Assembly (NCBI GenBank): GCA_036873755.1
Contig: JAVTVY010016089.1
Coordinates: forward strand, 1 to 64,000
DNA from: Hanleya hanleyi
Taxonomy: Eukaryota > Mollusca > Polyplacophora > Lepidopleurida > Hanleyidae
Direction of reading: 5' to 3'
DNA length: 64,000 nt
A program made the translations under genes and the position numbers. Below the pieces are notes generated by a model, which made no database searches, was not told the DNA's origin, and worked only from the letters and a program-made list of their open reading frames with translations. Below, piece after piece: positions 7,624 through 59,595 of the stretch; position 1 is the stretch's first letter; the number at the start of each line of letters is the position of its first letter.

Positions 7624-7629
7624 TGTACT

Positions 7630-8363: not shown

Positions 8364-8418
8364 TGACAGCTCTTCTCGTCTTAAATGTAAGGGTTTTTCA
8401 TTAGTTTCTATTTGTAGA

Positions 8419-8898: not shown

Positions 8899-8901
8899 TT
8901 T

Positions 8902-32804: not shown

Positions 32805-33370
32805 AAGCAACAGTTTTGGGGCTCCGAGCTCCGAGCTCCCGCCTGCCTCATCCTCGAGCTCCGAGCTCCCGACTACTCCATCCCCGAGCTCCGAGCTTCC
32901 GTCGTTACGCCTTAACGCCTGTCGTTACGCCTTAACGCCTGTCGTTACGCCTTAACGCCCTAGCATAACGCTTTGACACCACGATATACACAGATGAAAG
33001 AAAAACAACAACATCAAGGATGAGAGACGAGAGAACAACAACAACAACATGTTTTTTCTTTTCATATGGTTTATTCTCCCCTCCAGTACGTCATACCCAC
33101 GCTGGGGGAGCCGCGTTGGGTATGTTTACAATTCAAGGAGACTCTTGACTGCCGCATGATGGAAAAAACCCAGATACAAGTCTGTACATGCATTCCATAT
33201 GGTCCTGGAGGAGCGCTTCACTTTGACGCCTCACTCGACCCAATCGGTCCATGCAGCGTATTTGAAGTCTGGGGACTAATTTCTGTCCGCGGAGGCAGAC
33301 CGCATCACCGACAGACCAGATCACTGCGGAGGAATACATGCCCCATGCACTTGACCATCACGTGACCTCC
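32805..33370 (+). repeat. spacer repeats and diverged piece of the 36-48 kb element
   Basis: CTCCGAGCTCCGAGCTCC runs are followed by three copies of GTCGTTACGCCTTAACGCC. Then comes a segment matching 38880-39090 (TTTATTCTCC, CATACCCACGCTGGGG, AGCCGCGTTGGGTAT) and fragments resembling GACCGCATCACCG...GGAATACATG from the outer arms. Confidence 0.65.
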
Positions 33371-36178: not shown

Positions 36179-36639
36179 GAAAAAATATTTTCATTTTTTC
36201 CTTTTTTCTCCCATCTTTATTTTGGACTTTAAAGTGCAATAGTGACAGTAGTATACAAAGCGTATTTGGAACAAACTTGACCTACTTAATGACGTCATTT
36301 GGGGGAGGAATGGGGAGGTCACGGGAGGGTCACAGAGGTCAAGTGCAGTATAGTTCCGGCAGAAAGACCAAAAAGCTACCTCCAGCACAGGAGAGTTCCA
36401 AATTTGCATATCACGTGACCCAGGTCAAAGATGTATTCATCCGCGGTGATGCGGTCATGTCTGGCGGTGATTCGGTCGCGGGAAAAAGCTTCCGCGGAGA
36501 AAAAGTAGTCCCAAAATGGCGGCCTTGTGGGTGGTGGCCAAAAGCTACCTCTAACACAGGAGAGTTCCAATTGCTGCAGGGGATGTATTCAGGATGTATT
36601 CATCCGCGGTGATGCGGTCTGGCCGCGGTTTTGGCGGTG

Positions 36640-37350
36640 ATTCGGTCTTGGGAAAAAGCTTCCGCGGAGAAAAAATAGTCCCTAGATAAAATGGTCCGAT
36701 TGGGTCGAGTGAGGTATCAAAGTGAAGCTTATGTGAAGGGGCATCTATTGAGCTTGGTTTGGGGTTGAACTATCGGCATTCTGCGCATGCGCGGTGGCCG
36801 AAGGGTATGAAAATAGACGTTTTGGAGCCAGGGGAGCCCCTAATGGTCCAATGGGGTCGAGTGAGGTATCAAAGTGAAGCTTATGTGAAGGGGCATCTGA
36901 TGGGCTGGGTGTGGGGTTGAACTATCGGCATTCTGCGCATGCGCGGTGGCCCAAGGGTATGAACATAGACGTTTTGGGAGCTAGCGAAGCCAATAATGGG
37001 CCGATGGGGTCGAGTGAGGTATCAAAGTGAAGCTTATGTGAAGGGGCATCTGACTGGACTAGCGGCTTGGGCGTTGTCACCATTCTGCGCATGCGCGGTG
37101 GCCCAAGGGTATGGAAATAGACGTTTTGGGATCGAGCGAAGACAATAATGGTCCAGTGGGGTCGAGTGAGGTATCAAAGTGAAGCCTATGTGAGGGGCAT
37201 CTGATGGGCTGGGTGTGGGGTTGAACTATCGGCATTCTGCGCATGCGCGGTGGCCCACGGGTATGGAAATAGACGTGTTGGTATCTAGGGGAGCCCCTAA
37301 TGGTCCGATGGAGGCATATGAGGTATCAAAGTGAAGCCTAGGTGAAGGGG
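36640..37350 (+). repeat. 152-bp satellite, left arm, four units
   Basis: The GCGCATGCGC core recurs at 36783, 36935, 37087 and 37239, exactly 152 bp apart. Units include GGGGTCGAGTGAGGTATCA and AAGTGAAGCTTATGTGAAGG. The right arm has three corresponding cores (47634, about 47785 mutated, 47938). Confidence 0.9.
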
Positions 37351-37359
37351 TATTTGATG

Positions 37360-37990
37360 GCTGGGTGGGTGCATGTAAAATCTTTCCTGAAAAAAAAAAC
37401 GGAACTCGGACTTTATTGAAAAATCCGGGGAAATGCCTATATGGGGTATGGGGGGTATATAGGTCGCCGGACTTAACGGGGCTTGCCTATCAATAGAGTT
37501 ATCTCCCCCTAGTTCCAGGGTGGGTGTATGTAAAAATTTTCCTGAAAAAATACGGAACACGGCCTTTATTCTAAATTACGGGAAAATGCCTATATGGGGT
37601 ATGGGGGTATAGGACCATCCTGAGAAACCCACTTCTCGACATTTGCGGTAGGGTTGTGGGGTCTCGTTTTCTTAGTCTCGTCAAGACAAACATGATAGGA
37701 AGTGTCCCGGAGCGAAACGGTGAAATTTTTGAAATGTACGATATAGCCCCATATAGACATATATATATAAATATATATTCCCATACTGGGATGTTTATCC
37801 TACTGGGAAACCTACTTCTAGACATTTGCGGTAGGGTTGTGGGGTCTCGTTTTCCACGTCTCGACATTTAAAACATGTTAGGAAGGGTCGCGGAGCGAAT
37901 CGGTGAAATTTTTGAAAAAAGTCACCAAGGCCTGGGTATGCCCATAGGCCTATACTGCATGGCTATGGGTGTATAGGGCCATACGGGGTG
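37360..37990. repeat. left-arm segment with two diverged tandem blocks
   Basis: GGAAATGCCTATATGGGGTA recurs at about 37428 and 37580, and ACATTTGCGGTAGGGTTGTG at about 37637 and 37819. Mirrored at 46880-47520 in the right arm. No gene. Confidence 0.7.
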
Positions 37991-37999
37991 GACATGTTG

Positions 38000-38790
38000 G
38001 AGTCTAGGTGAGTGCCTAATGGTTCAATGGGGTCGAGTGAGGTCTTGTTTTGAAGCTCTCGTGGAGGAGCACTTGACTACACTAATGGTTCGTCCGTGTT
38101 CAATAGTCTGCGCATGCGCAGACTGGCCCGTAGTATAGAAAGTAGGCATTTTGGGGGCTATGTGGGTGTGTGTTTGGGTTAGAGATGGGCTATTCACAGT
38201 TCGAATGGGTCGTGTGAGGTATCAATGTGAAGCTTGTGTGGGGTAGAGTCAGGATGGCGTGTTTTTAAATGCATGTCGCGTCAATATGCGCATGCGCAGT
38301 CTGGCCGTAGTAGAGAAATCAGGCATTTTGGGGGTATGTGGGTATGTGTTTGGGGTAGAGATGGACCGCTATGGGTCCGAAAGGGTCGTGGAAGGTGTCA
38401 AAGTGAAGCTTGTGTGGGTTAGAGTCAGAATGGTGTGTTTTTAAGTGCAAGTCGCGTTAATCTGCGCATGCGCAGTTGGTTGTAGTAAGTAAAGTGGCCA
38501 TTTTGATGAGCCTTTTGGGGCAGTACAGGAAGGTATTTGGTGTAGAGATGGACCATCCGCGTTGCGAATGCGCCATGGGAGGTGTCATGCTGTAGCTCTC
38601 GGAGTATAGACCCTGATTTGAGGGATATTTACAGCATCTGTGACGTCATTGGTGACGTCATCAGTACGAGTAGTAGCGAAAGTGGACATTTTTTAGCAGT
38701 GCAGGATGTTATTTGGTGTAGAGATGGACCATCCGCGGTCCAAATGGACCGTGTGAGGTGTCATCTTGTAGCAACGCCCACTAACACCAT
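38000..38790 (+). repeat. 175-180-bp satellite, left arm
   Basis: GCGCATGCGC cores at 38110, 38288 and 38464, with diverged units to about 38790. Units share GAGATGGACC and AGTGAAGCTTGTGTGGG. Mirrored in the right arm at about 46080-46870 (cores 46408, 46584, 46762). Confidence 0.85.
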
Positions 38791-39519
38791 GCTTAATGCT
38801 TCAACGCCCTGGTGAAATAGTTCAGAAGCTCTGATATTCCATGGAATTGTCACTAATTCTTCGAAATGCAGTGATGCCCGTCAACGCCCGTCGTTACACC
38901 TTAACACTCTAACATAACGCCATGATATACACCAGAGGAAGAACAACAACAGCAACAACAACAAGGATGACTCATGAGAGAACAACAAAAACAAGAAGTA
39001 TTTTTTCATATAGTTTATTCTCCCCAATGATACATCATACCCACGCTGGGGAGCCGCGTTGGGTATATTTACAATTCAAGAAGATTCTTATCCAATCAGA
39101 GGCCACCATTTGCATGTTTCATATTCGTTCTTGTCCGTTAAATGTATTCTTGTCCAATCAGAAGTCTCCATTTCCGAAAGTGCCATCTGAACCGTTTATT
39201 TTAATCATCGTCGGGCAGGCCAGGATACCGTTGAGCCACTGGTCAGTGGTCAGAACGTAACATTGGTCATTACCTCCACTATCCACTTGGTGTTACAATT
39301 CAAGAATACTCTTTGCATCTGTCATATTCGTTCCTGTCCGTTAGATGTATTCTTGTCCAATCAGAAGTCTCCATTTCAGAAAGTTCCATCTTCGGCCATG
39401 TTCGCTTTGAACCGTTTATTCGAATCATCGTCGGGCAGCCCAGGATACCGTTGAGGCAACATATCCTCAGATAGTTGCTTGTGTATTCTGAGTATCTGTC
39501 AGTGCATGGGTGAATACAT

Positions 39520-40444
39520 TCACCCGATGGGATGGTCGGTCAGCTTGGTCACGAAGAACGTAACATTGGTCACACTGTCCACTGTCCACTTGGTGTTGGG
39601 GCGTTGTTGTTGGGCCCATTCCAAGGGATCCACGGTGTTCAGTTTCTCCAGCATCGCCTCTAGCGACACTCGCTTAATGATGGTAAACGGTTGATCAAAT
39701 ACCTGGATGTTACTGCTCGGGTAAAAGTATCGGACTTGGACTGTCTCCTTATGCTGCAGCACATAACCAAACGCCAGATTCAATCTGAAGGCCGTAGTTT
39801 GATCGTTGAAGATGGCTTCCACGTAGCTACGTAGACGGGCGAGGTCGGTCAGTCGGCAATTGTAGATGATCTTGAATAGGGCGATGACGGTGGAAACAGT
39901 GCCGTATCATCGACCAATGGCGCCGATAGATGTCCCTCACTGGATGGGCGCCCTGTAAGAGATCGCTAGGAACATTTATGGGCTCGTCCAGAAAATGTTC
40001 GATGTTGTCAGGCGTATGACTCGAAACTGTAACGGTGGGGTCCGGCTGGATATCCAGGCTCTGCTGAACTGTAGGTATAGACGGGCTCTCCTTCATCGCA
40101 TCACCAGTGGCATTCGTCTCCCCGGGCTCATCTTCACTAGGTCTGACCTTCCGCGGCTCCTCTTCAGTAGGAAGTTGTCGCACATGCCATGATACCGGGG
40201 CATGAATCAACCGTTGGTGTCGCAGCAACTGACTGCGTCGTTTGAAGAGTTGACCACAACCGTTACATTGTTCCGTCGCGCCCTCGTTGAATGAGCGTTC
40301 GTAGCACAGTAAATGATCCTCCCGATTGAATGACCGTGCGCAGGTTGTACAAGTATACCGGGTATCGTTGTGGGTGGAGGCCTCGTGGCGTCTTAAATTA
40401 TCTAGACGAGTAAACGGCTTCTGGCAAGTTATGCAAGTGAACAT
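39520..40444 (-). pseudogene. C2H2-finger / Polinton PolB-N-like gene, copy 1
   Basis: About 307 codons with one 1-nt insertion near 39872, so it reads as 205 plus 100 residues. N-terminal fingers: finger 1 is intact (CITC...H...H, residues 4-25), finger 2 has lost its histidines, finger 3 is intact (CNGC...RHQRLIH). An acidic linker follows. The C-terminal domain has FRLNLAFGYVLQHKE, VRYFYPSSN, QRPNTKW and VTNVTFFV and ends HPIG-stop. From family knowledge this domain precedes PolB in some Polinton-type elements; the polymerase itself is absent. A TATA box lies 45-53 bp before the ATG. Confidence 0.68.
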
Positions 40445-40488
40445 CTTGGTGGTTGACAGAGTGTCTGATGAAACGGCCAGGCCGCTTC

Positions 40489-40497
40489 CCTTTTATA
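40489..40497 (-). promoter_or_regulatory. TATA box for copy 1
   Basis: TATAAAAGG on the minus strand, 45 bp before the ATG at 40444, inside GTGCTATAAAAGGGAAGCGG. The same block precedes copy 2. Confidence 0.7.
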
Positions 40498-40699
40498 GCA
40501 CGCTAGCTGGTGATCTATTTTTAGCACACTCAGTTCAACTATCCCCAAGTCGAGGGCCGAGCCGTGACATCTTCGGTAATCTCCGTGTCTCTTCGGTCAC
40601 CTCCGTAACGTCAACGATCAACATGTAGACATATAGAGTATGTACGGCATGTTATGGTATTCATCAGTGCATGATTGACGCATTCAGCCGATGGGGGTG

Positions 40700-41576
40700 G
40701 TCGATCAGCTTGGTAACGAAAAACGTAACATTGGTCATACTCTCCACTGTCCACTTGGTGTTGGGGCGTTGTTGTTAGGCCCATTCCAAGGGATCCACGG
40801 TGTCCAGTTTCTCCAGCATCGTTTCTAGCGACACTCGGTTAATGATGGTAAACGGTTGGTCAAATACCCAGATGTTACTGCTCTGGTAAAAATATCGGAA
40901 TTGGACTGTCTCCTTATGCTGCAGCACATAACCAAACGCCAGATTCAATCTGAAGGCCGTAGTTTGATCTTTGAAGATGGCTTCCACGTAGCTACGTAGA
41001 CGGGCGAGGTCGGTCAGTCGGAAATTGTAGATATCTTGAATAGGGCGATGACGGTAGAAACATTGCCGGATCATGGGCCAATGGCGCCGATAAATGTCAC
41101 TCACTGTATGGTCTTCGTGTAATAGATCGCTGGGAACATTTATGGGTTCGTCCACGAAGTGTACTTTGCCCTCCACGTCGTACAAAATCTAGCCCAAGGT
41201 CTTGTTGTCGGATTTTGACTGTTGAATTAGGGCGACATCATCATCGGCCCTCGTGCGATGGGTGGGAGTTCCCCTGTTTCGATATTGATGCCTACGGGCT
41301 CTTCTACCTGCAAACGTGGCTGCGGAACAGGGTGTCGTGTGCGTTGGTGTCGCAGCAACTGACTGGTCAGTTTGAAAAGCCGACCACATTCTTCGCATGG
41401 ACGCTTGGTACTTCATGGCGTGCACGTGTGTGGCGCTGTAAATGATCCGGGCGCTGAAACGACAGTGTACATATCGTACAGTTATACCGGGCGGTTCCTT
41501 CGTGCTTGGTAGCCTCATGGCGGTGCAAGTCGTGCAGACGAGTGAATGATTTCGAGCACGTAGTACAAGTGAACAT
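40700..41576 (-). pseudogene. C2H2-finger / Polinton PolB-N-like gene, copy 2
   Basis: Fingers 1 and 2 are intact (CTTC...RHEATKH; CTIC...RHTRARH) from the ATG at 41576. Finger 3 (CEEC...RHQRTRH) is in a second frame and the following segment in a third, so there are at least two frameshifts. TAG replaces the Gln of LGQILYDVEG and TAA replaces a Gln in WAQQQ; copy 3 has sense codons at both. It lies head-to-tail beside copy 1. The decay is older than that of copy 1. Confidence 0.7.
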
Positions 41577-41630
41577 CTTGGTGGTTGACAGAGTGTCTGA
41601 CGAAACGGCCAGGCCGCTTCCCTTTTATAG

Positions 41631-41639
41631 CACGCTAGC
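41631..41639 (-). promoter_or_regulatory. TATA box for copy 2
   Basis: TATAAAAGG on the minus strand, 55 bp before the ATG at 41576. The flanks (GACACTCTGTCAACCACCAAG toward the gene) match copy 1 closely, so the promoter was duplicated with the gene. Confidence 0.68.
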
Positions 41640-41814
41640 TGGTATCATGTTCGGGCACCTCCGTGTCTCTTCGGATATAAAAGTCCCCGGATGTAAAAGT
41701 GCCCGGATATTTACGAATGTTCCACCATTCCGGACTTCTATCAGGTCCATGTCCAGAAAGCTCTCATGTCCTGCATGTGAATAGTCATATTGTGTGTGTA
41801 TGCATGTGTGTATG

Positions 41815-41815
41815 C

Positions 41816-41870
<55 letters not shown>
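41815..41870 (+). repeat. (TG)n microsatellite
   Basis: Long TG run in the element spacer. A second, imperfect TG-rich tract lies at 44300-44460 on the same strand. Confidence 0.95.
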
Positions 41871-42684
41871 TGAAAGGTGTCAAATGGGGACATTGACATG
41901 AATACACACCTTTCAAATGGGGACCCCCCTCCAAACGGGGACGTCCCCGTTTGACTTAAGGCTTGAAACGTGCAGCCAAGCCTGTTTTTGGAACTCTCTA
42001 GTGAAATGAGGTAAATACGGTATACGTCCACATTTAGGCAGCAAAATTAAAGCGCGAGGTGTATGCGTGTGTTTCCCGCTCCGTGGAGAAAAAATCTGCT
42101 CAATACACACAGGTCCCCGTTTGCGCATGAATTAGTTAGTCACGTGACAACGAACGAAGAGAGATAAAACGAGACTGAAGAAAGAACAATACACGATTCG
42201 ACTGCGGGCAATATTGTACGGAACGTGAGTTGAATTTTCTGATTTACTTTGAAACACTTGTTTGATGGACATAAACCGAAAACGAAACAATATGCGTACC
42301 GTACCTAGTCAGATATTTTGTTTGTCCCCATGTTCCTGCAAATCAGAAGAAAATGCCAGAAGACAACAACAACAATCTTCCTTGAGGAATAGTTTATTAC
42401 TCAGTTGTTGATACTTCAACGTTGTCATTCGATAAAGTGGTAGACGGAAAACAACAACGACAACTAGACATTGTGGGTACAATGTCACGGTCTTTCCATG
42501 ACGTCCCCCAAAAGTATTATTTCGCTGTATCGTGATGTGGCATATACTACACATTTTCTGGAAAGTTTAATTTGTCAAGATTGCGAGAGCCTTAGATCGA
42601 GTGTGAACTTTCATCGTTATGCGCCGTTATCCAAACAATTGCTAAAAGATAAACTATTGAAAGTCTATGGTTTTCTGTATGAGT

Positions 42685-43046
42685 CATGTACTTCAACATC
42701 CTCATGGTACTCATATGAACAGTCACAATCAAAGCGTGACTGAGGTACATCATTTTTAGATGACGACTCTATAACGAATATTATGGATTCAGAATACTGA
42801 TCAGCGATACGGATTTGATATTTTGGAACATCATGATGTCTTGCCGGCATCATTGAAAACTGTTGACCGCTTCTCTCTTGCAGGAAACAAGCCTATGTTT
42901 ATGTATACTTTTGTCTTTTTGAATTTGGTGCTAATACTGTTATATGGAAATGGAATAGGTCTTTGGATTATGGACGCGGATATTCTCTAATGGACGACGG
43001 CTGGATTATGAATGACGGACTAGACGCTTGTAATTATCTGGGCACT
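42685..43046 (-). repeat. R2 dispersed repeat, copy 4
   Basis: Nearly full-length R2 on the minus strand, ending at CGCTTGTAATT on the plus strand. It matches 23902-24265 from end to end. Confidence 0.8.
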
Positions 43047-43252
43047 GAATATATGTCGCTCAATACTTATTTCTTCGTGTACATCAACATACTTCAAACA
43101 GCATGCTAATTGGGGGCGGAAATTGTATCCTGCCTGCAACAATGCGAATGCATTCTTACTGTCAATTCCAAACACATATATATATTTCCTCAATCCAAAT
43201 TGATGACCTGAACCAGAAACTTCAGCCTAGTATCCACAAATCGCCTGAAACA

Positions 43253-43605
43253 ACAACGAGATGCAGTTGCAGAGATGCCCGTTCAATTACGTATTGTGGC
43301 GCGCGATTTTAGTCGACTGGGTATTGTTCGTGAATTAGTAAAGAAATCACTACCTTCTTTTGACAGTCCATTCGTACTTCATCTGGGAACATTCCACGTA
43401 AACGGCGGCATGGAATATTCCCTCGTTTTAGGGTCTTTAATCCTAGACACCTAAATGCCATCCCTGCCGAGCTTGCTTAGAAAACAGCTAAGTTCCGACG
43501 CTCGCCGTGAAAGGAACACTCGCGCGTATTTGAAGACAGACGCGCGCACTTCCGGTGAAGCAAATTATTCACCATGTTTGTTTCCGAATACCAGTATCGA
43601 TGCAT
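43253..43605 (+). repeat. R3 repeat, copy 2
   Basis: Plus-strand partner of 19735-20100: GGCGCGCGATTTTAGTCGAC, TTCGTACTTCATCTGGGAAC, TTCCCTCGTTTTAGGGTC, ACGCGCGCACTTCCGG. Confidence 0.7.
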
Positions 43606-44299
43606 AATTTTCGCAAAATTTGAATAAATCGAAAATTTCAGAAATGGCTAATTATCTCTCAATCTTTCTGGTATCTTTTTATGGGTTCTACTGATGTCCT
43701 GCTACCTCATGTAATGACCTTATTTTATGATATACCTATAATTTGACAAAGATGTATATAGATGGTGGCGAATTGGACATCCGATTTTATTTACTTTTTT
43801 GCAATAACATCGACAAATGTTTTGTTTATTATGATCTGGGTCACCCCAGATCGAAACTGGCTGCGTCCAGCGACGTCCATGAAACGTGTTCAACGTTACA
43901 TGTAGTAATAAAACAGCAAAGTATGATAGAATTGGTTATATGTTCACTTGACATGTCCCTATTTAGCCTACATATCATTTGCAATAATAAATTTATTGAT
44001 GATGTCCCCATTTGGTTGGTTTTAAACATTTGTCCCCACTTGGATAGTCTACACTTGACGGAAGTGCGTCCCCATTTTAGCAGCATCTTTCACGGCGAGT
44101 GTGAAATGTGTGCGTCCCCACTTTGACAAGCTTGAACATTTTTGCCAAATTTCAGAATTTGATGGATCCAAAGGTCCAGTGGGCGTCTCTATGATTGCCT
44201 TTATTGGAATCTGAGGTTCATTTCTCTCTTGGCACCTTATTAACAAAGTCCCCATTTAGAGGGGTTGTGGCAGGCGTCCCCGGTTGACATCTTTCACAT
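43606..44299. other. spacer with GTCCCCATTT boxes, no gene
   Basis: GTCCCC(A/C)(T/C)TT recurs at about 44005, 44031, 44070, 44114 and 44249. The opposite orientation, AAATGGGGAC, occurs at 41883-41930. No coding motif recognised. Confidence 0.5.
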
Positions 44300-44422
44300 G
44301 TATGTGTGTGTGTATGCGTGTATGAGCGTGTGGGCTTGTGTGTGTGTATGCTTGCGTGTATGAGCGTGTGGGTTTGTGTGTGTGTGTGTATGCTTGCGTG
44401 TATGTGTGTGTATGTATGCCTT

Positions 44423-44456
<34 letters not shown>

Positions 44457-44460
44457 TGCG
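44300..44460 (+). repeat. TG-rich microsatellite tract
   Basis: TGTGTGTATGCTTGCGTGTATGAG-type imperfect units, then pure TG. Confidence 0.92.
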
Positions 44461-44472
44461 AGTGTGTTTCTT

Positions 44473-44827
44473 GGATCGGAGCTCTTGGAGCTCAAAGCCT
44501 GTGGAGCTCAGAAGACGGAAGTGACATTTGCATATGACCTCTGTGAGGTCACTTCCGCTTCCGTTCACGTGACCGGAAGTGACCTTTGACCCCGGCACAC
44601 CTGCTGTGTGTGTATGTGTGTGCTTGCGACTGCGTTTCTTGGATCGGAGCTCTTGGAGCTCAAAGCCTGTGGAGCTCAGAGGACGGAAGTGACATTTGCA
44701 TATGACCTCTGTGAGGTCACTTCCGCTTCCGTTCACGTGACCGGAAGTGACCTTTGACCCCGGCGCGCGCGGTGTAAAGGTTTCCACCGCGGTTTTTTGC
44801 GCGCCGGGGTCAAAGGTCACTTCCGGT
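44473..44827 (+). repeat. 168-bp tandem duplication ending in a 29-nt-arm hairpin
   Basis: GGATCGGAGCTCTTGGAGCT recurs at 44473 and 44641. Each unit carries GAGGTCACTTCCG and GGAAGTGACCTTTGACCCC. The second unit ends in a hairpin: arms 44740-44768 and 44799-44827 are perfect complements over 29 nt (ACCGGAAGTGACCTTTGACC...). The right arm directly abuts gene copy 3. Confidence 0.88.
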
Positions 44828-45379
44828 GTCGCCCTAATTCAACAGTCAAAATCCGACAACAAGACCTTGGGCCAGATTTTGTACGACGTGGAGGGCAAAG
44901 TACACTTCGTGGACGAACCCATAAATGTTCCCAGCGATCTCTTACACGAAGACCATCCAGTGAGTGACATTTATCGGCGCCATTGGCCCATGATCCGGCA
45001 ATGTTTCTACCGTCATCGCCCTATTCAAGATATCTACAATTTCCGACTGACCGACCTCGCCCGTCTACGTAGCTACGTGGAAGCCATCTTCAAAGATCAA
45101 ACTACGGCCTTCAGATTGAATCTGGCGTTTGGTTATGTGCTGCAGCATAAGGAGACAGTCCAATTCCGATACTTTTACCCGAGCAGTAACATCCAGGTAT
45201 TTGATCAACCGTTTACCATCATTAACCGAGTGTCGCTAGAGACGATGCTGGAGAAACTGTACACCGTGGATCCCTTGGAATGGGCCCAACAACAACGCCC
45301 CAACACCAAGTGGACAGTGGACAGTGTGACCAATGTTACGTTCTTCGTGACCAAGCTGACCGACCATCCCATCGGGTGA
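44828..45379 (+). pseudogene. Polinton PolB-N-like gene, copy 3 (finger-less)
   Basis: An uninterrupted frame encodes the domain also seen in copies 1 and 2: LGQILYDVEGKVHFVDEPI, DIYRRHWPMIRQCFYRHRPI, FRLNLAFGYVLQHKE, FRYFYPSSN, QRPNTKW and VTNVTFFV, ending HPIG-stop. The zinc fingers and promoter are replaced by the hairpin sequence at 44827, so it has no natural start; a frame open through the hairpin is fortuitous. This is the best-preserved copy of the domain and is inverted relative to copies 1 and 2. Confidence 0.7.
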
Positions 45380-45419
45380 ATGTATTCACCCATGCACTGA
45401 TAGATACTCAGAATGCACA

Positions 45420-46000
45420 AGCAACTATCTGAGGATATGTTGCCTCAACGATATCCTGGGCTGCCCGACGATGATTCGAATAAACGGTTCAAAGCGAACA
45501 TGGCCGAAGATGGAACTTTCTGAAATGGAGACTTCTGATTGGACAAGAATACATCTAACGGACAGGAACGAATATGACAGATGCAAAGAGTCTTCTTGAA
45601 TTGTAACACCAAGTGGATAGTGGAGATAATGACCAATGTTACGTTCTGACCACTGTCCTGGCCTGCCCGACGATGGTTAAAATAAACGGTTCAGATGGCA
45701 CTTTCTGAAATGGAGACTTCTGATTGGACAAGAATACATTTAACGGACAGGAACGAATATGAAACATGCAAATGGTGGCCTCTGATTGGATAAGAATCTT
45801 CTTGAATTGTAAATATACCCAACGCGGCTCCCCAGCGTGGGTATGATGTAACATTGGGGAGAATAAACTATATGAAAAAATACTTCTTGTTTTTGTTGTT
45901 CTCTCATGTGTCATCCTAGTTGTTGTTGCTGTTGTTGTTCTTCCTCTGGTGTATATCATGGCGTTATGTTAGAGTGTTAAGGTGTAACGACGGGCGTTGA
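45420..46000. repeat. right-arm segment with tandem block (mirror of 38880-39480)
   Basis: CTTCTGATTGGACAAGAATA recurs at about 45534 and 45719. The mirror region is 38880-39480. A related fragment (GGTGGCTTCTGATTGGACAA) appears alone at about 63247. Confidence 0.72.
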
Positions 46001-48204
46001 CGGGCATCACTGCATTTCGAAGAATTAGTGACAATTCCATGGAATATCAGAGCTTCTGAGCTATTTCACCAGGGCGTTGAAGCATTAAGCATGGTGTTAG
46101 TGGGCGTTGCTACAAGATGACACCTCACCCGGTCCATTTGGACCGCGGATGGTCCATCTCTACACCAAATAACATCCTGCACTGCTAAAAAATGCCCACT
46201 TTCGCTACTACTCGTACTGATGACGTCACCAATGACGTCACAGATGCTGTAAATATCCCTCAAATCAGGGTCTATACTCCGAGAGCTACAACATGACACC
46301 TCCCATGGCGCATTCGCAACGCGGATGGTCCATCTCTACACCAAATACCTTCCTGTACTGCCACAAAAGGCTCATCAAAATGGCCACTTTACTTACTACA
46401 ACCAACTGCGCATGCGCAGATTAACGCGACTTGCACTTAAAAACACACCATTCTGAGTCTAACCCACACAAGCTTCACTTTGACACCTTCCACGACCCTT
46501 TCGGACCCATAGCGGTCCATCTCTACCCCAAACACACACCCACATACCCCCAAAATGCCTGATTTCTCTACTACGGCCAGACTGCGCATGCGCATATTGA
46601 CGCGACATGCATTTAAAAACACGCCATCCTGACTCTACCCCACACAAGCTTCACATTGATACCTCACACGACCCATTCGAACCGTGAATAGCCCATCTCT
46701 AACCCAAACACACACCCACATACCCCCCAAAATGCCTACTTTCTATACTACGGGCCAGTCTGCGCATGCGCAGACTATTGAACACGGACGAACCATTAGT
46801 GTAGTCAAGTGCTCCTCCACGAGAGCTTCAAAACAAGACCTCACTCGACCCCATTGAACCATTAGGGACTCACCTAGACTCCAACATGTCCACCCCGTAT
46901 GGCCCTATACACCCTTAGCCATGCAGTATAGGCCTATGGGCATACCCAGGCCTTGGTGACTTTTTTCAAAAATTTCACCGATTCGCTCCGCGACCCTTCC
47001 TAACATGTTTTAAATGTCGAGACGTGGAAAACGAGACCCCACAACCCTACCGCAAATGTCTAGAAGTAGGTTTCCCAGTAGGATAAACATCCCAGTATGG
47101 GAATATATATTTATATATATATATCTATATGGGGCTATATCGTACTTTTTCAAAAATTTCACCGTTTCGCTCCGGGACACTTCCTATCATGTTTGTCTTG
47201 ACGAGACTAAGAAAACGAGACCCCACAACCCTACCGCAAATGTCGAGAAGTGGGTTTCTCAGGATGGTCCTATACCCCATACCCCATATAGGCATTTTCC
47301 CGTAATTTAGAATAAAGTCCGTGTTCCGTATTTTTTCAGGAAAATTTTTACATACACCCACCCTGGAACTAGGGGAAGATAACTCTACTGATAGGCAAGC
47401 CCCGTTAAGCCCGGCGACCTATATACCCCCCATACCCCATATAGGCATTTTCCCGGATTTTTCAATAAAGTCCGAGTTCCGTTTTTTTTTTTCAGGAAAA
47501 ATTTTACATGCACCCACCCAGCCATCACATACCCCTTTACCTAGGCTTCACTTTGATACCTCATATGCCTCCATCGGACCATTAGGGGCTCCCCTAGATA
47601 CCAACACGTCTATTTCCATACCCTTGGGCCACCGCGCATGCGCAGAATGGTGACAACGCCCAAGCCGCTAGTCCAGTCAGATGCTCCTTCACATAAGCTT
47701 CACTTTGATACCTCACTCGACCCCATCGGCCCATTATTGGCTTCGCTAGCTCCCAAAACGTATATGTTCATACCCTTGGGCCACCGCGCATGCGAAGAAT
47801 GCCGATAGTTCAACCCCACACCCAGCCCATCAGATGCCCCTTCACATAAGCTTCACTTTGATACCTCACTCGACCCCATTGGACCATTAGGGGCTCCCCT
47901 GGCTCCAAAACGTCTATTTTCATACCCTTCGGCCACCGCGCATGCGCAGAATGCCGATAGTTCAACCCCAAACCAAGCCCATTAGATGCCCCTTTACATA
48001 AGGTTCACTTTGATACCTCACTCGACCCAATCGGACCATTTTATCTAGGGACTACTTTTTCTCCGCGGAAGCTTTTTCCCAAGACCGAATCACCGCCAAA
48101 ACCGCGGCCAGACCGCATCACCGCGGATGAATACATCCTGAATACATCCCCTGCAGCAATTGGAACTCTCCTGTGTTAGAGGTAGCTTTTGGCCACCACC
48201 CACA

Positions 48205-48420
48205 AGGCCGCCATTTTGGTCCCACCACCACCACCACCACCACCCACAATCCGCCATTTTGTCCCATCCCATCCCACATCAGCCGCCATTTTGTCCCATC
48301 CCATCCCACGCCGCCATTTTGTCCCATCCCATCCCACATCAGCCGCCATTTTGTCCCATCCCATCCCACATCAGCCGCCATTTTGTCCCATCCCACATCA
48401 GCCGCCATTTTGATCACGCC
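48205..48420 (+). repeat. 32-bp tandem array, GCCGCCATTTTG units
   Basis: About seven units of CCGCCATTTTGTCCCATCCC plus ATCCCACATCAG, some shortened to 26-28 bp. The matching left-arm site (about 36520) has a single copy, so the array grew in the right arm only. Confidence 0.9.
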
Positions 48421-48770
48421 ACACCCAGCCCATTAGATACCCCTTCACATAAGCTTCACTTGGATACCTCACTCGACCCCATCGGACCATTTTATCTAGG
48501 GACTACTTTTTCTCCGCGGAAGCATTTTCCCGCGACCGAATCACCGCCAGACATGACCGCATCACCGCGGATGAATACATCTTTGACCTGGGTCACGTCA
48601 TATGCAAATTTGGAACTCTCCTGTGCTGGAGGTAGCTTTTTGGTCTTTCTGCCGGAACTATACTGCACTTGACCTCTGTGACCCTCCCGTGACCTCCCCA
48701 TTCCTCCCCCAAATGACGTCATTAAGTAGGTCAAGTTTGTTCCAAATACGCTTTATATACTACTAGTGAC

Positions 48771-51815: not shown

Positions 51816-52083
51816 ATAATGTGTAAAAGGCGGACTAGTACAACGAAATATCCTACGGTAGATGAAGTGTACATTAAATTTGAAGCCAACAACCGGAGTT
51901 ACTGAGTAACATGAGCATGATCCGAGAAACCCGATCTGTTATTCTTGTTCGCTCTAGCTCAGCAGAAATTAAGTCGGTACGATATTACATATGCTATTTC
52001 ACAGAAATTCGCAAGACAAAAGGACGTTATCCGCCCCTAGCTTTCGTATGCAGAACTAGAACTTACAACAACAACACTTAACA

Positions 52084-53232
52084 ATGGGTGAACTGCTTTA
52101 CTTGGTCCTTGGTTTACTGGCTGTATTCTTGCCGTCTGCTTTTGGTAACGATCCCCATCGCCGGCAAAGCACACTCGACGTAATGAATATTCGATTAGAG
52201 AATCTGGAAAATCTTCTACTTCAAGAGCAGTCCAGAAATAGGAAGTTACAAACTAGTATGTCAGCGAGATTGACGAAAATGGAGTCTGATCTCGGAAAAT
52301 GTGCATGTTCCCCTGTGAATAAGGTGGAAACGTCATTTTCTAACGATCACGTGACCAATCTCGAGAACGGACTGTTGCGGGAAAAGTCCAGCAGGCGAGA
52401 GATGGAAAATGTGATCGAGAACCTTAAAACCGGTCAACTAAGCAATGAGTTCAAATTGCAGATTTTAGACGAAAAAGTGTTTCGAGAAAATTCCAGCAGA
52501 CGAGAGATGGAAAATGTGATCGAGAACCTTAAAACAAGTCAACTGGGCAATGAGTTCAAATTGAAGATTTTAAACGAAAAAGTGTTTCGAGAAAATTCCA
52601 GCAGACGGGAGATGGAAAATGTGATCGAGAACCTTAAAAGAAGTCAACTGGGCAATGAGCTCAAATTGAAGATTTTAGACGAAAAAGTACTGCAATTACA
52701 AGTGAATGTCTCGCAAATGTCTGATTGTAAGGATAAGGTTGCTGCTACAGAAATGAGTGACAAGAGTAAAGAAAACATTCCTCAAAATGTCGACAAAGTG
52801 AATGAAAAGAAAACATGCCCATCTACATTCACTAAACTCCATTCGGGCTGTTATTACTTTCAACTATCTCCTCTGCGACTTAACTACGATATGGCTAAGG
52901 CGGAATGCGAACGAAGGAACGCGAGTCTTGCGACGGTAGAAACGGTGGCCGAGAGAGACGCCATACAGCAATATCTTCAGAGTGCAACAATAGATAAAAG
53001 ATTCAACAACGAATTTCTCACCAGCGCAAAGAGAACATCTGAAAATTGGAAATGGATCGGAGAAAACCAGAAGCAATGGAACATCAGATCGGACGTCCTA
53101 GATAACTGGAGGACCGGTCGACCTAGAAGCCGCAACTATGGGCTCAACTGTTTGACCTTCTGGCCCAGCAATTATAAATGGTCGGATACCTACTGTTCGA
53201 TGTATGTAAGACAGTTTGTCTGTGAAAAATGA
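52084..53232 (+). CDS. secreted coiled-coil C-type lectin, copy 1
   Basis: 382 residues, single exon. Residues 1-21 form a signal peptide (LLYLVLGLLAVFLPSAFG). Residues 30-220 are heptad-rich, with three 35-residue repeats (SSRREMENVIENLK...LKILDEKV), suggesting an oligomeric stalk; GKCACSPVNK may give interchain disulfides. The C-type lectin domain (about 250-382) has the six cysteines of the long form: CPSTF..GCYYF, AECERRNASL, NCLTFWP, YCSMY, FVCEK, plus WKWIG. Canonical EPN/QPD is absent and WND reads KWSD, so calcium-dependent sugar binding is doubtful. ATG follows AACACTTAACA. Probable role: extracellular recognition or immune defence (inference). Confidence 0.9.
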   Translation: MGELLYLVLGLLAVFLPSAFGNDPHRRQSTLDVMNIRLENLENLLLQEQSRNRKLQTSMSARLTKMESDLGKCACSPVNKVETSFSNDHVTNLENGLLREKSSRREMENVIENLKTGQLSNEFKLQILDEKVFRENSSRREMENVIENLKTSQLGNEFKLKILNEKVFRENSSRREMENVIENLKRSQLGNELKLKILDEKVLQLQVNVSQMSDCKDKVAATEMSDKSKENIPQNVDKVNEKKTCPSTFTKLHSGCYYFQLSPLRLNYDMAKAECERRNASLATVETVAERDAIQQYLQSATIDKRFNNEFLTSAKRTSENWKWIGENQKQWNIRSDVLDNWRTGRPRSRNYGLNCLTFWPSNYKWSDTYCSMYVRQFVCEK

Positions 53233-53375
53233 TATACGGTCTAACAGAATTATATATGAATGCAATATTGTCCCTGGTTGATGGAGATAATGCCCTTTCT
53301 GTTTCTGGTCTTATAAACGCTGTCTATTTCAACTGGTCAAATTTCAATAATTAGTTTGTTGTTTGCAGCGTGTAT

Positions 53376-53381
53376 AATAAA
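53376..53381 (+). terminator. poly(A) signal, lectin copy 1
   Basis: AATAAA 144 bp past the stop, in GTGTATAATAAACTGAAA. Conserved in copies 2 (56310) and 3 (59240). Confidence 0.6.
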
Positions 53382-53735
53382 CTGAAATCTACAAATGACT
53401 TCCATTATTGTGTGATATTGATAATATATTACGCTTGAAATAGCAATGTAATTCTCTTCATATTAAAGTCCATAATAGTTGTTTCATGTATACCAAGACT
53501 CAATTACATAGGGTGACAACCTCTATTCGTGGTCAAGCGAATACCCCATTACCAGTCAAATTGTCGAACGTTAAACCGCACACACCCATGCACGGCATTA
53601 CTGAACTTTGTCCGAGTGAACACGAATACATTATGGTATCACCCTATTCAACTGAGCCCGGTAAATAAATCAACTTTTATGGAGGTAAGCAGTGATAAAA
53701 AGGTGAATTGCGGTCGTATTGGCACCAGGGGCGAT

Positions 53736-53901
53736 GTTGACCTACTTGTGACGTCACTTCCGGTTCCGTTCATGTGATCGGAAGCGATCATTGACCCCTG
53801 CGGATGCGCTAAATACCGGATATTAATAATGGTCCGCAGGGGTCAAAGGTCACTTCCGGTCACCTAATCTGAGTCGGAAGGGACGTCACAAGTAGGTCAA
53901 C
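53736..53901. repeat. foldback with nuclear-receptor-like core, unit 1
   Basis: GTTGACCTACTTGTGACGTC and its near reverse complement bound 166 bp. Inside, GGGGTCAAAGGTCACTTCCG joins a DR1-type half-site pair and an ETS-type box, paired with a diverged complementary arm. Repeated at 56666-56831 and 59596-59761. Confidence 0.85.
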
Positions 53902-55008
53902 AGCGCCCCCTGTGGCAATATGACCGCATTTCACCGTTTATATAGGAGGGTCAAAAAGGTCATATGCCCCAGGTTCAATACGACCGAATAAGCTCTTTCA
54001 ACGGGGGCCAGGAGACGTCTACGGAGCTATATATGCACGGGGTCGGTCTGTATAGCCACAAAAAATATACATGGGTACATGGGAAGTAAGACTTATAGTA
54101 CTAAAGACAACGTATAGGTGTTGTACGATGTTATTATTACGAGTCTATGATCAGTGCGAACACAGGGTCGAGCGTGTCGCGTCCAGTATGTCTCTACAAA
54201 ACATAAACAAACAAAATGGTGGCGTTTGCTGTGGGAAATCCGTTTTGGCATCGATCGTGCTGCCATCTGGAGGCAATGAAGACAACTCTGACTAGGCGAA
54301 ACATCCGTGGGCCGAATTCCGGGTGATCTCCCCTGATTGGAACATTTGCGAATATGCCCAATGGGGAACCCACACATGGACATTTGCGGTATGGAGTATG
54401 GTTACTTTTTTTCTCGTCTCACCACGTAGAACACGTCTAATAGCTAACTTCAGCTGATCAGCGACTAAATCGTATAATTTCCCTATGCTCTATCTTTTAA
54501 TCCCCGAAGATAGGTAGCATACTTTCATGTAATATTTGCCAAATCATATATCATTCTAAGCACAATGACACTTTCTTTGAATACCGAGAAAATATAGTGC
54601 TTATGATTAAAATTATGTCAGTTATCGCCAGTTCAAAATATTGTCCTGGGCTAAAATATAGGGCAAAATGAAATTATACGAACCCAGTAACTGATCAGCT
54701 GAAGTCACGAGTCGCTGCACAGACAGGCTCTACCTCGTTCTCTCAATAATGTGCAGAAGGCGGATTATTACAACGAACACGGTTGATGAAGTGTGCATGA
54801 AATTTGAAGCCAACAGCCGGGTCTATTGAGTAACATGAGCATGATCCGAGTAACCCGATCTGTTATTCTTGTTCCGCTCTAGCTTAATAGAAATTAAGTC
54901 GGTACGATATCACATATGCTATTTCACAGAAATTCGCAAGACAAAAGGACGTTATCCGCCCCAAGCTTTTGTATGCAGAACTAGAACTTACAACAACAAC
55001 ACTTAACA

Positions 55009-56166
55009 ATGGGTGAACTGCTTTACTTGGTCCTTGGTTTACTGGCTGTGTTCTTGCCGTCTGCTTTTGGTAACGATCCCCATCGCCGGCAAAGCACACT
55101 CGACGTAATGAATATTCGATTAGAGAATCTGGAAAATCTTCTACTTCAAGAGCAGTCCAGAAATAGGAAGTTACAAACTAGTATGTCAGCGAGATTAACA
55201 AAAATGGAGTCTGATCTCGGAAAATGTGCATGTTCCCCTGTGAATAAGGTAAAAACGTCATTTTCTGACGATCACGTGACCAATCTCGAGAACGGACTGT
55301 TGCGGGAAAAGTCCAGCAGGCGAGAGATGGAAAATGTGATCGAGAACCTTAAAACCGGTCAACTAAGCAATGAGTTCAAATTGCAGATTTTAGACGAAAA
55401 AGTGCTTCGAGAAATGTCCAGCAGACGAACGATGGAAAATATGATCGAGAACCTGAAAACCGGTCAACTTGGCAATGTGTTCAAATTGAAGATTTTAAAC
55501 GAAAAAGTGTTTCGAGAAAATTCCAGCAGACGGGAGATGGAAAATGTGATCGAGAACCTTAAAAGAAGTCAACTGGGCAATGAGCTCAAATTGAAGATTT
55601 TAGACGAAAAAGTACTGCAATTACAAGTGAATGTCTCGCAAATGTCTGATTGTAAGGATAAGGTTGCTGCTACAGAAATGAGTGACAAGAGTAAAGAAAA
55701 CATTCCTCAAAATGTCGACAAAGTGAATGAAAAGAAAACATGCCCATCTACATTCACTAAACTCCATTCGAGCTGTTATTACTTTCAACTATCTCCTCTG
55801 CGACTTAACTACGACATGGCTAAGGCGGAATGCGAACGAAGGAACGCGAGTCTTGCGACGGTAGAAACGGTGGCCGAGAGAGACGCCATACAGCAATATC
55901 TTCAGAGTTTGCATGCCACAATAGATAAAAGAATCAACAACGGATTTCTCACCAGCGCAAAGAGAACATCTGAAAATTGGAAATGGATCGGAGAAAACCA
56001 GAAGCAATGGAACATCAGATCGGACGTCCTAGATAACTGGTCGACCTTTGGACCTAGAAGCCGCAAATCTGGACTCAATTGTTTGGCCTTCTGGCCGGCC
56101 AGCAATTATAAATGGTTGGATATCTACTGTTCGATGTTTGCAAGACAGTTTGTCTGTGAAGAATGA
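55009..56166 (+). CDS. secreted coiled-coil C-type lectin, copy 2
   Basis: 385 residues, same layout as copy 1: signal peptide, three 35-residue coiled-coil repeats, long-form lectin domain with all six cysteines. The middle coil repeat differs (SSRRTMENMIENLK). Compared with copy 1 the lectin domain has two extra residues after LQS (LHATIDKR), HSSCYYF for HSGCYYF, and a different distal loop: NWSTFGPRSRKSGLNCL, FWPASNYKWLDIYCS and MFARQFVCEE. No EPN or QPD. Potential N-glycosylation at NSS, NVS and NAS. Likely regulated like its neighbours, since the upstream 500 bp is shared. Confidence 0.9.
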   Translation: MGELLYLVLGLLAVFLPSAFGNDPHRRQSTLDVMNIRLENLENLLLQEQSRNRKLQTSMSARLTKMESDLGKCACSPVNKVKTSFSDDHVTNLENGLLREKSSRREMENVIENLKTGQLSNEFKLQILDEKVLREMSSRRTMENMIENLKTGQLGNVFKLKILNEKVFRENSSRREMENVIENLKRSQLGNELKLKILDEKVLQLQVNVSQMSDCKDKVAATEMSDKSKENIPQNVDKVNEKKTCPSTFTKLHSSCYYFQLSPLRLNYDMAKAECERRNASLATVETVAERDAIQQYLQSLHATIDKRINNGFLTSAKRTSENWKWIGENQKQWNIRSDVLDNWSTFGPRSRKSGLNCLAFWPASNYKWLDIYCSMFARQFVCEE

Positions 56167-56309
56167 TATACGGTCAAACAGAATTATATATGAATGCATT
56201 GTTGTCTCTGGTTGATGGAGATAATGGCCTGGCTGTTTCTGGTCTTATAAACGCTGTCTATTTCAACTGGTCAAATTTCAATAATTAGCTTGTTGTTTGC
56301 AGCGTGTAT

Positions 56310-56315
56310 AATAAA
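56310..56315 (+). terminator. poly(A) signal, lectin copy 2
   Basis: AATAAA 144 bp past the stop codon, same context as copy 1. Confidence 0.6.
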
Positions 56316-56665
56316 CTGAAATCTACAAATGACTTCCATTATTGTGTGATATTGATAATATATTACGCTTGAAATAGCAATGTAATTCTCTTCATATTAA
56401 AGTCCATAATAGTTGTTTCATGTATACCATGTATTAAATAGGGTGACAACCTCTATTCGTGGTCAAGCGAATACCCCATTACCAGTCAAATTGTCGAACG
56501 TTAAACCGCACACACCCATGCACGGCATTACTGAACTTTGTCCGAGTGAACACGAATACATTATGGTATCACCCTATTCAACTGAGCCCGGTAAATAAAT
56601 CAACTTTTATGGAGGTAAGCAGTGATAAAAAGGTGAATTGCGGTCGTATTGGCACCAGGGGCGAT

Positions 56666-56831
56666 GTTGACCTACTTGTGACGTCACTTCCGGTTCCGTT
56701 CATGTGATCGGAAGCGATCATTGACCCCTGCGGATGCGCTAAATACCGGATATTAATAATGGTCCGCAGGGGTCAAAGGTCACTTCCGGTCACCTAATCT
56801 GAGTCGGAAGGGACGTCACAAGTAGGTCAAC
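56666..56831. repeat. foldback with nuclear-receptor-like core, unit 2
   Basis: Copy of 53736-53901, 2930 bp away, apparently without changes. Confidence 0.85.
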
Positions 56832-57938
56832 AGCGCCCCCTGTGGCAATATGACCGCATTTCACCGTTTATATAGGAGGGTCAAAAAGGTCATATGCCCC
56901 AGGTTCAATACGACCGAATAAGCTCTTTCAACGGGGGCCAGGAGACGTCTACGGAGCTATATATGCACGGGGTCGGTCTGTATAGCCACAAAAAATATAC
57001 ATGGGTACATGGGAAGTAAGACTTATAGTACTAAAGACAACGTATAGGTGTTGTACGATGTTATTATTACGAGTCTATGATCAGTGCGAACACAGGGTCG
57101 AGCGTGTCGCGTCCAGTATGTCTCTACAAAACATAAACAAACAAAATGGTGGCGTTTGCTGTGGGAAATCCGTTTTGGCATCGATCGTGCTGCCATCTGG
57201 AGGCAATGAAGACAACTCTGACTAGGCGAAACATCCGTGGGCCGAATTCCGGGTGATCTCCCCTGATTGGAACATTTGCGAATATGCCCAATGGGGAACC
57301 CACACATGGACATTTGCGGTATGGAGTATGGTTACTTTTTTTCTCGTCTCACCACGTAGAACACGTCTAATAGCTAACTTCAGCTGATCAGCGACTAAAT
57401 CGTATAATTTCCCTATGCTCTATCTTTTAATCCCCGAAGATAGGTAGCATACTTTCATGTAATATTTGCCAAATCATATATCATTCTAAGCACAATGACA
57501 CTTTCTTTGAATACCGAGAAAATATAGTGCTTATGATTAAAATTATGTCAGTTATCGCCAGTTCAAAATATTGTCCTGGGCTAAAATATAGGGCAAAATG
57601 AAATTATACGAACCCAGTAACTGATCAGCTGAAGTCACGAGTCGCTGCACAGACAGGCTCTACCTCGTTCTCTCAATAATGTGCAGAAGGCGGATTATTA
57701 CAACGAACACGGTTGATGAAGTGTGCATGAAATTTGAAGCCAACAGCCGGGTCTATTGAGTAACATGAGCATGATCCGAGTAACCCGATCTGTTATTCTT
57801 GTTCCGCTCTAGCTTAATAGAAATTAAGTCGGTACGATATCACATATGCTATTTCACAGAAATTCGCAAGACAAAAGGACGTTATCCGCCCCAAGCTTTT
57901 GTATGCAGAACTAGAACTTACAACAACAACACTTAACA

Positions 57939-59096
57939 ATGGGTGAACTGCTTTACTTGGTCCTTGGTTTACTGGCTGTGTTCTTGCCGTCTGCTTTTGG
58001 TAACGATCCCCATCGCCGGCAAAGCACACTCGACGTAATGAATATTCGATTAGAGAATCTGGAAAATCTTCTACTTCAAGAGCAGTCCAGAAATAGGAAG
58101 TTACAAACTAGTATGTCAGCGAGATTAACAAAAATGGAGTCTGATCTCGGAAAATGTGCATGTTCCCCTGTGAATAAGGTAAAAACGTCATTTTCTGACG
58201 ATCACGTGACCAATCTCGAGAACGGACTGTTGCGGGAAAAGTCCAGCAGGCGAGAGATGGAAAATGTGATCGAGAACCTTAAAACCGGTCAACTAAGCAA
58301 TGAGTTCAAATTGCAGATTTTAGACGAAAAAGTGCTTCGAGAAATGTCCAGCAGACGAACGATGGAAAATATGATCGAGAACCTGAAAACCGGTCAACTT
58401 GGCAATGTGTTCAAATTGAAGATTTTAAACGAAAAAGTGTTTCGAGAAAATTCCAGCAGACGGGAGATGGAAAATGTGATCGAGAACCTTAAAAGAAGTC
58501 AACTGGGCAATGAGCTCAAATTGAAGATTTTAGACGAAAAAGTACTGCAATTACAAGTGAATGTCTCGCAAATGTCTGATTGTAAGGATAAGGTTGCTGC
58601 TACAGAAATGAGTGACAAGAGTAAAGAAAACATTCCTCAAAATGTCGACAAAGTGAATGAAAAGAAAACATGCCCATCTACATTCACTAAACTCCATTCG
58701 AGCTGTTATTACTTTCAACTATCTCCTCTGCGACTTAACTACGACATGGCTAAGGCGGAATGCGAACGAAGGAACGCGAGTCTTGCGACGGTAGAAACGG
58801 TGGCCGAGAGAGACGCCATACAGCAATATCTTCAGAGTTTGCATGCCACAATAGATAAAAGAATCAACAACGGATTTCTCATCAGCGCAAAGAGAACATC
58901 TGAAAATTGGAAATGGATCGGAGAAAACCAGAAGCAATGGAACATCAGATCGGACGTCCTAGATAACTGGTCGACCTTTGGACCTAGAAGCCGCAAATCT
59001 GGACTCAATTGTTTGGCCTTCTGGCCGGCCAGCAATTATAAATGGTTGGATATCTACTGTTCGATGTTTGCAAGACAGTTTGTCTGTGAAGAATGA
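57939..59096 (+). CDS. secreted coiled-coil C-type lectin, copy 3
   Basis: 385 residues, identical to copy 2 except for one visible change, GFLTSAKRT to GFLISAKRT (codon ACC to ATC near 58881). The surrounding 2930-bp unit, including 5' flank and 3' UTR, also looks almost unchanged, so the duplication or a gene conversion is very recent. An assembly duplication is possible. Same signal peptide, coil and lectin domain features as copy 2. Confidence 0.9.
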   Translation: MGELLYLVLGLLAVFLPSAFGNDPHRRQSTLDVMNIRLENLENLLLQEQSRNRKLQTSMSARLTKMESDLGKCACSPVNKVKTSFSDDHVTNLENGLLREKSSRREMENVIENLKTGQLSNEFKLQILDEKVLREMSSRRTMENMIENLKTGQLGNVFKLKILNEKVFRENSSRREMENVIENLKRSQLGNELKLKILDEKVLQLQVNVSQMSDCKDKVAATEMSDKSKENIPQNVDKVNEKKTCPSTFTKLHSSCYYFQLSPLRLNYDMAKAECERRNASLATVETVAERDAIQQYLQSLHATIDKRINNGFLISAKRTSENWKWIGENQKQWNIRSDVLDNWSTFGPRSRKSGLNCLAFWPASNYKWLDIYCSMFARQFVCEE

Positions 59097-59239
59097 TATA
59101 CGGTCAAACAGAATTATATATGAATGCATTGTTGTCTCTGGTTGATGGAGATAATGGCCTGGCTGTTTCTGGTCTTATAAACGCTGTCTATTTCAACTGG
59201 TCAAATTTCAATAATTAGCTTGTTGTTTGCAGCGTGTAT

Positions 59240-59245
59240 AATAAA
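59240..59245 (+). terminator. poly(A) signal, lectin copy 3
   Basis: AATAAA 144 bp past the stop codon, same context as copy 2. Confidence 0.6.
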
Positions 59246-59595
59246 CTGAAATCTACAAATGACTTCCATTATTGTGTGATATTGATAATATATTACGCTT
59301 GAAATAGCAATGTAATTCTCTTCATATTAAAGTCCATAATAGTTGTTTCATGTATACCATGTATTAAATAGGGTGACAACCTCTATTCGTGGTCAAGCGA
59401 ATACCCCATTACCAGTCAAATTGTCGAACGTTAAACCGCACACACCCATGCACGGCATTACTGAACTTTGTCCGAGTGAACACGAATACATTATGGTATC
59501 ACCCTATTCAACTGAGCCCGGTAAATAAATCAACTTTTATGGAGGTAAGCAGTGATAAAAAGGTGAATTGCGGTCGTATTGGCACCAGGGGCGAT

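Follow-up and report, generated by a model that had tools for sequence, protein, structure and literature searches.

What kind of element gives rise to a 12.5-kb unit whose two arms are inverted copies of each other? The question is raised by a 64,000-nucleotide stretch of DNA from the polyplacophoran mollusc Hanleya hanleyi (GenBank assembly GCA_036873755.1, contig JAVTVY010016089.1, positions 1 to 64,000 of the forward strand; hereafter, the window), in which an element of 12,518 bp, delimited by its tips, flanks and inverted arms, occupies positions 36247-48764. Direct reading of the window placed AGTAGTATA at the left tip, from 36247, and TATACTACT at the right tip, up to 48764, and located a target-site duplication, AGTGAC, immediately outside both tips (36241-36246 and 48765-48770). 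Two 6-bp flanks at fixed positions would agree exactly by chance in one of 4,096 pairs, and the same arrangement was repeated at other loci; thus, we do not regard the AGTGAC flanks as a chance match. Our analysis makes it likely that this element is one copy of a high-copy, non-autonomous family of the Polinton/Maverick type, with giant inverted arms and a zinc-finger gene of its own. For the remaining functions, the family probably relies on machinery encoded by other elements of its host genome.

The right arm (44827-48764, minus strand) is an inverted copy of ~3.9 kb of left-arm sequence. The main blocks of the two arms are 95-100% alike and follow each other in inverted order: 36247-36517 with 48494-48764 (98%), 36511-37197 with 47533-48219 (96%), 37377-37606 with 47275-47504 (95%), 37604-37734 with 47148-47278 (100%), 37723-39225 with 45656-47158 (1,503 nt, 99%) and 39241-39867 with 45032-45658 (98%). 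The left arm is the longer one because it contains two copies of the zinc-finger gene. At the left end, an outer tip that begins with (AGT)2 and differs among copies (36247-36303, plus strand) is followed by a 209-bp subterminal core (36304-36512, plus strand), which is 97-98% identical in several copies with an unrelated outer tip; the right copy of tip and core (48499-48764, minus strand) is 99% identical to the left end. Both arms contain tandem arrays of a 152-bp unit (36690-37367, with the right-arm counterpart at 47516-48040) and of a 176-bp unit (38109-38487 and 46394-46774), and an array of a 32-bp unit (48251-48412) was found in the right arm only. A preliminary description of the window had interpreted this unit as a gutted Polinton-type element rebuilt as a giant inverted repeat, and its account of the length, the exact AGTGAC flanks, the ~3.9-kb arms and their satellites agrees with our reading. 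A stretch of ~2.4 kb between GT tracts (41873-44305) is unmatched in the copy on contig C18628 of the same assembly and is probably a nested insertion.

The host assembly comprises 2.48 Gb in 52,793 contigs. Using a 42-base piece of the subterminal core and allowing up to two mismatches, we obtained 525 plus-strand and 495 minus-strand matches, 1,020 overall, with none for the reversed control; at two ends per copy, the family has ~500 copies. Among the first 100 core matches listed, a plus match followed by a minus match at a distance of 1.6-13.4 kb was seen on nine contigs, and a further contig has two plus matches. A second search, with the terminal 271 bp, returned 2,341 first-look candidates, of which the best 40 were scored. 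We checked 12 same-contig end pairs, nine from the core search and three from the terminal search, and found a 6-bp duplication in seven: the window (AGTGAC), C24711 (TATGAC), C18628 (GACACA), C14178 (AACAAT), C16809 (CGTGAC), C13814 (CCCATC) and C8256 (GTCAGT, counting two AGT units per end; a script based on the longest AGT run scored none there). The tips have the form (AGT)n//(ACT)n, with two to four units. The Polinton-type termini and 6-bp duplications of the preliminary description, and further copies bearing them, are therefore present in this genome. Three additional pairs of mates lying on separate contigs were recognized post hoc from reverse-complementary flanks (CAGGTT, CATACT and CAGCTC); this is weaker evidence, and the tips differ by 11-15% in two of the three.

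The copy on C13814 is short (1,764 bp), palindromic and fully read, and it sits within a tandem repeat. When its flanks are joined around one CCCATC, the resulting 40-mer has four exact matches in the neighbouring repeat units; this is an exact empty site, and the preliminary description had proposed to look for an empty site. Giant inverted arms are also present in C24711, C18628 and C23948, which are all three of the other full-size copies read on both sides. Since the arms recur in the family, a one-off snap-back origin of the window element was rejected, and the history of a single rebuilt element is not supported: giant arms recur in other copies, and one group of PolB-bearing elements is mirrored as well. 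The copy on C24711 additionally contains a 353-residue frame (L031:2313-3371) with a weak similarity to reverse transcriptases (E value of 7e-5, below the cut-off), which is probably a nested insertion. Outside the element, at 32824-33340 of the window, a degenerate arm-related sequence is 78% identical over ~210 bp to the 38.9-kb region and has weaker matches to the end region; it is perhaps an old relative or a shared satellite.

The zinc-finger gene is the only conserved gene that we found in the family. In the window, its three copies are all broken: copy A (39520-40444, minus strand) has a frame break near 39.9 kb, copy B (40658-41577, minus strand, approximate ends) is also interrupted, and the third copy (44827-45379, plus strand) lacks the finger part. 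When six open frames of the element were compared with Pfam, C2H2 fingers alone scored above the cut-offs (E value of 4.6e-9 in copy A; the copy in the right arm lacks them), and domains for replication, integration or capsid formation were not detected. This agrees with the absence of such genes noted in the preliminary description, weakly so for the capsid, as Pfam also misses a putative capsid frame in a fuller Polinton of the same genome (C18518, described below). The encoded protein has 305 amino acids, with three C2H2 fingers and one further domain. Elsewhere in the host genome, 121 of the best 129 matches, scored out of 45,402 first-look candidates, have no internal stop; the open frames of the scored genes span 314-378 amino acids, with no longer fusion among the matches listed. 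At least two zinc-finger genes occur on 13 contigs among the matches listed, and in 11 of these they are minus-then-plus neighbours 1.6-3.6 kb apart, which is the expectation for the centre of a palindrome whose genes point outward. The ratio of nonsynonymous to synonymous substitution rates (dN/dS) was 0.24-0.45 in 13 of 20 pairwise comparisons; several of the 20 involve truncated copies. We read this as a sign of past selection on a gene whose copies are now decaying. The gene thus appears to be a conserved, free-standing one and not a leftover. The gene fragment of the preliminary description is correct in that the gene is broken in the window; however, there are three copies of it, and most of the best-scored genes in the rest of the genome are intact, so that gutted is not supported as a description of the element. 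An AlphaFold2 model of the protein, built from three window sequences, was uninformative (mean predicted local distance difference test score, pLDDT, of 35) and was not used, and none of 50 pattern matches to the second domain in IMG/VR was confirmed.

According to a study of vertebrate Mavericks (PMC8097293), the commonest tip of these elements is (AGT)2//(ACT)2, they generate 6-bp duplications and have eight core genes, and the intact ones measure 12.7-24.6 kb, with inverted repeats that range from 46 to 1,447 bp and average 402 bp; the search strategy behind that set required PolB plus integrase. The window element resembles them in its tips, its 6-bp duplication and, closely, its size (12.5 kb). 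It differs in its arms of ~3.9 kb, outside the range given there, and in carrying one zinc-finger gene, with PolB, integrase, capsid, protease and ATPase not found in the six open frames scanned. Tips and duplications without core genes, in many copies, are what characterizes a non-autonomous Polinton-type element; this assignment is supported for the window element, which we do not file as an autonomous Polinton. Symmetric recombinant adenovirus DNA (SYREC) is a case of a protein-primed linear genome that has become a giant palindrome; it is defective and came from cell culture, whereas the window family is genomic and has its own conserved gene. Galileo, a foldback-type element, also has long, internally repetitive inverted repeats; it is classed with P elements by its transposase (PMC3573991), and our comparison concerns the long inverted repeats alone. 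We found no paper on non-autonomous Polinton/Maverick elements and, among the titles listed, none on such elements with palindromes or long inverted repeats in a search that left out Repbase and most of the subscription literature, so their absence from the literature is unproven.

PolB genes are present in the host genome in other elements. The Pfam model DNA_pol_B_2 gave 164 matches there (the best 84 of 1,723 candidates were scored) and none in 14 control genomes. One group of PolB-bearing elements ends in AGTAGTATAGG or a close variant. Its 287-bp end gave 710 candidates, and in 19 of the best 40, which were scored, a listed PolB match lies 2.2-3.3 kb inward and is oriented to the tip. Two PolB genes of this group occur on each of C28015, C41214, C4967 and C17501, always in minus-then-plus order. 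These palindromes share with the window element its first nine bases, AGTAGTATA, the mirror layout and one outward gene per arm, and C17501 also has a 6-bp duplication; they carry PolB in place of the zinc-finger gene and do not match the window element at the DNA level. Six same-contig pairs of the group were compared, and duplications were found on C17501 (GGCGTC), C37869 (ACCGTT) and C30352 (CGCGTC); the joined site of C17501 matches C23948 flank sequence at 30 of 32 bases. On C4967, the palindrome centre lies near 25016, and the first PolB exons of the two sides differ (dS of 0.307, dN of 0.068); this contig lacks a matching duplication, so the two halves may derive from separate elements. 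The flank CATGTC and a 100% identical end are common to the right end on C28015 and the left end on C41214, which suggests that these contigs are misjoined and that the two ends are mates of one insertion.

In the stretches of C4967 that were read (L049 and L050), the only frames of at least 120 amino acids are PolB and a 238-residue frame that we take for the last part of PolB. The centre of C28015 contains frames of up to 355 amino acids with no significant Pfam match, and for the PolB on C4967, the N-terminal half had no pattern match in IMG/VR. A fuller Polinton on C18518 has, beside PolB, an integrase core (E value of 1.1e-9), a chromodomain, a Peptidase_C5 domain and an IVa2-type ATPase; the match of this ATPase to the A32 model is below the cut-off, and large frames of the Polinton, among them the putative capsid frame without a Pfam match, have no assigned family. 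The PolB elements and this Polinton are candidate helpers that could serve the window family.

With such helpers, linear copies of the element would be replicated from both AGT ends by a protein-primed PolB acting in trans; a Polinton integrase, likewise acting in trans, would insert them at staggered cuts of 6 bp. The zinc-finger protein would bind the arms of its own element and recruit the borrowed machinery. A displaced single strand, or a surviving half, could fold into a hairpin with a proper end and regenerate the element; the palindrome would then persist because either half can be folded into a template with such an end.

The tips of a transposon are usually its conserved part. Along 36247-36303 and its mirror, and at the ends of loci L003-L068, the outermost bases appear as a mix-and-match of variants next to a nearly constant core. 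Each element or locus contributed a single end to a comparison of 30 ends, from which C16122-left, L011, L014, L005 and every right end were excluded; the mean diversity per column was 0.424 in 95 outer columns versus 0.025 in 60 core columns, a contrast that is exaggerated because the copies were retrieved by their core. Among two-state columns, 212 of the 595 pairs in the tip had all four combinations, versus none of one pair in the core, which suggests that the tips have been exchanged frequently among copies. The two tips of an element are mutual nearest neighbours in eight of the 12 pairs (six of the seven with duplications and two of the four without). A variable tip beside a conserved core offers a handle on the evolution of the way in which protein-primed polymerases and integrases recognize ends.

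Several observations weigh against a non-autonomous family with a conserved gene and borrowed machinery. Four same-contig pairs (C23948, C5534, C7368 and C11300) have no duplication and C16122 has lost its left tip; three of the six PolB-group pairs (C28015, C41214 and C4967) also lack one. No contig is shared between the 79 listed with PolB and the 141 listed with family ends, and the intact relative that the preliminary description had proposed to look for, with the same first 200 bp, PolB and integrase, was not found among them. Scoring only the best 129 candidates favours intact zinc-finger genes, and seven of the 20 dN/dS values are at least 0.60 (0.60-0.91 in six, and 3.1 in one with a dS of 0.01). 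The second domain of the zinc-finger protein has no Pfam match; homology to the N-terminal region of PolB seemed plausible by eye but is unproven, as profile comparisons gave non-significant E values of 0.15 and 0.31. Finally, the inner arms of the window element are no more similar to each other than to those of other copies, so regeneration of a whole element from one half is unsupported; the tips may point to one arm having been newly copied from its partner, but the inner arms do not.

The preferred reading has to be set against four others. The Polinton ends and the three broken gene copies of the window would also be produced if a Polinton had lost its genes and duplicated one end in mirror image, yielding a foldback derivative with a leftover gene piece; the giant arms of other copies, the largely intact gene among the best-scored matches and the lack, among the contigs listed, of an ancestor combining the first 200 bp with PolB make this unlikely. 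That a single conserved gene was found in the family could also mean that it is autonomous and that its protein itself starts replication or transposition. We consider this very unlikely for a protein of this size, which has three fingers and an unassigned domain, in which no catalytic family was found and for which the structure prediction was uninformative.

A foldback element of another class of DNA transposons would account for the duplications, since 6-bp duplications are not unique to Polintons and IS3EU and Dada are candidate classes; such an origin is nevertheless highly improbable, given that no transposase gene of this kind was seen in the loci read and that palindromic PolB elements of the same genome have identical first nine bases. 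Additionally, AGT-repeat tips of two to four units are the published Maverick motif (PMC8097293). Mirror-image joins of repeats during assembly are a further conceivable source of palindromes. A minus core match stands alone on 46 of the contigs listed (the 34 lone plus matches are not part of this tally), and it lies <9 kb from the contig start in 35, at 9-15 kb in two and deeper in nine; because of these 35, we conclude that contigs are prone to end inside family elements, and some pairs are probably misjoined, as the resemblance of C28015-right and C41214-left to mates of one insertion indicates. An artefact is hardly credible for the family as a whole, as the window, C24711 and C18628 combine matching duplications with real differences between their arms, and the 1,764-bp palindrome was read in its entirety.

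A more speculative extension of the non-autonomous reading, which we regard as doubtful, is a multipartite Polinton system in which functions are split over separate Polinton-ended elements that complement each other in trans, like the segments of a virus, with one gene per palindrome arm and with the zinc-finger protein, PolB and perhaps a packaging ATPase on different elements. Among the matches listed, 115 contigs have the zinc-finger gene, 79 have PolB and 141 have an A32-type ATPase, with no contig in common, and the ATPase model matches the host genome without an internal stop in 135 of 143 scored matches, mostly as a 216-residue open frame. Against such a system, the contig lists cover only the top-scoring matches from larger sets, the ATPase model also matches in two of the 14 control genomes, and the C18518 Polinton has an ATPase beside PolB and is yet missing from the ATPase list. 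Examples of the ATPase gene are C9591:41783-42322 and C3038:34415-34954, on contigs absent from the PolB list; matches near contig starts are mostly oriented, by eye, to the contig start. Polintons stand between transposons and DNA viruses, and a family with hundreds of giant palindromic copies that retains their ends and one conserved DNA-binding gene would indicate that Polintons, like viruses, include satellite-like or even multipartite lineages. Palindromic elements of this kind tend to break contigs and would evade searches based on the joint presence of PolB and integrase.

The left arm was also compared with shuffled sequence for short motifs. GCGCATGCGC had 14 strand counts versus none in 100 shuffles, with two in window positions 1-36000. 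TGACGTCA occurred six times versus a shuffle mean of 0.34 and a maximum of four; it also occurred 12 times versus 0.62 in positions 1-36000, so its enrichment is not special to the arm. Neither CCGGAAGT (no occurrence) nor CACGTG (four versus 3.1) was enriched. Elsewhere in the window, minus-strand frames at 7467-10861 resemble, by eye, a non-long-terminal-repeat retrotransposon with endonuclease, reverse transcriptase and RNase H. On the plus strand, a frame of ~390 amino acids with internal repeats of 105 bp occurs four times in tandem at 52060-61930; by eye, the encoded proteins look like secreted C-type-lectin-like proteins. At 63471-63980, there are tandem arrays of a 29-bp unit containing AAGATGGCCGCCA, a motif that resembles one in the 32-bp array of the element's right arm.

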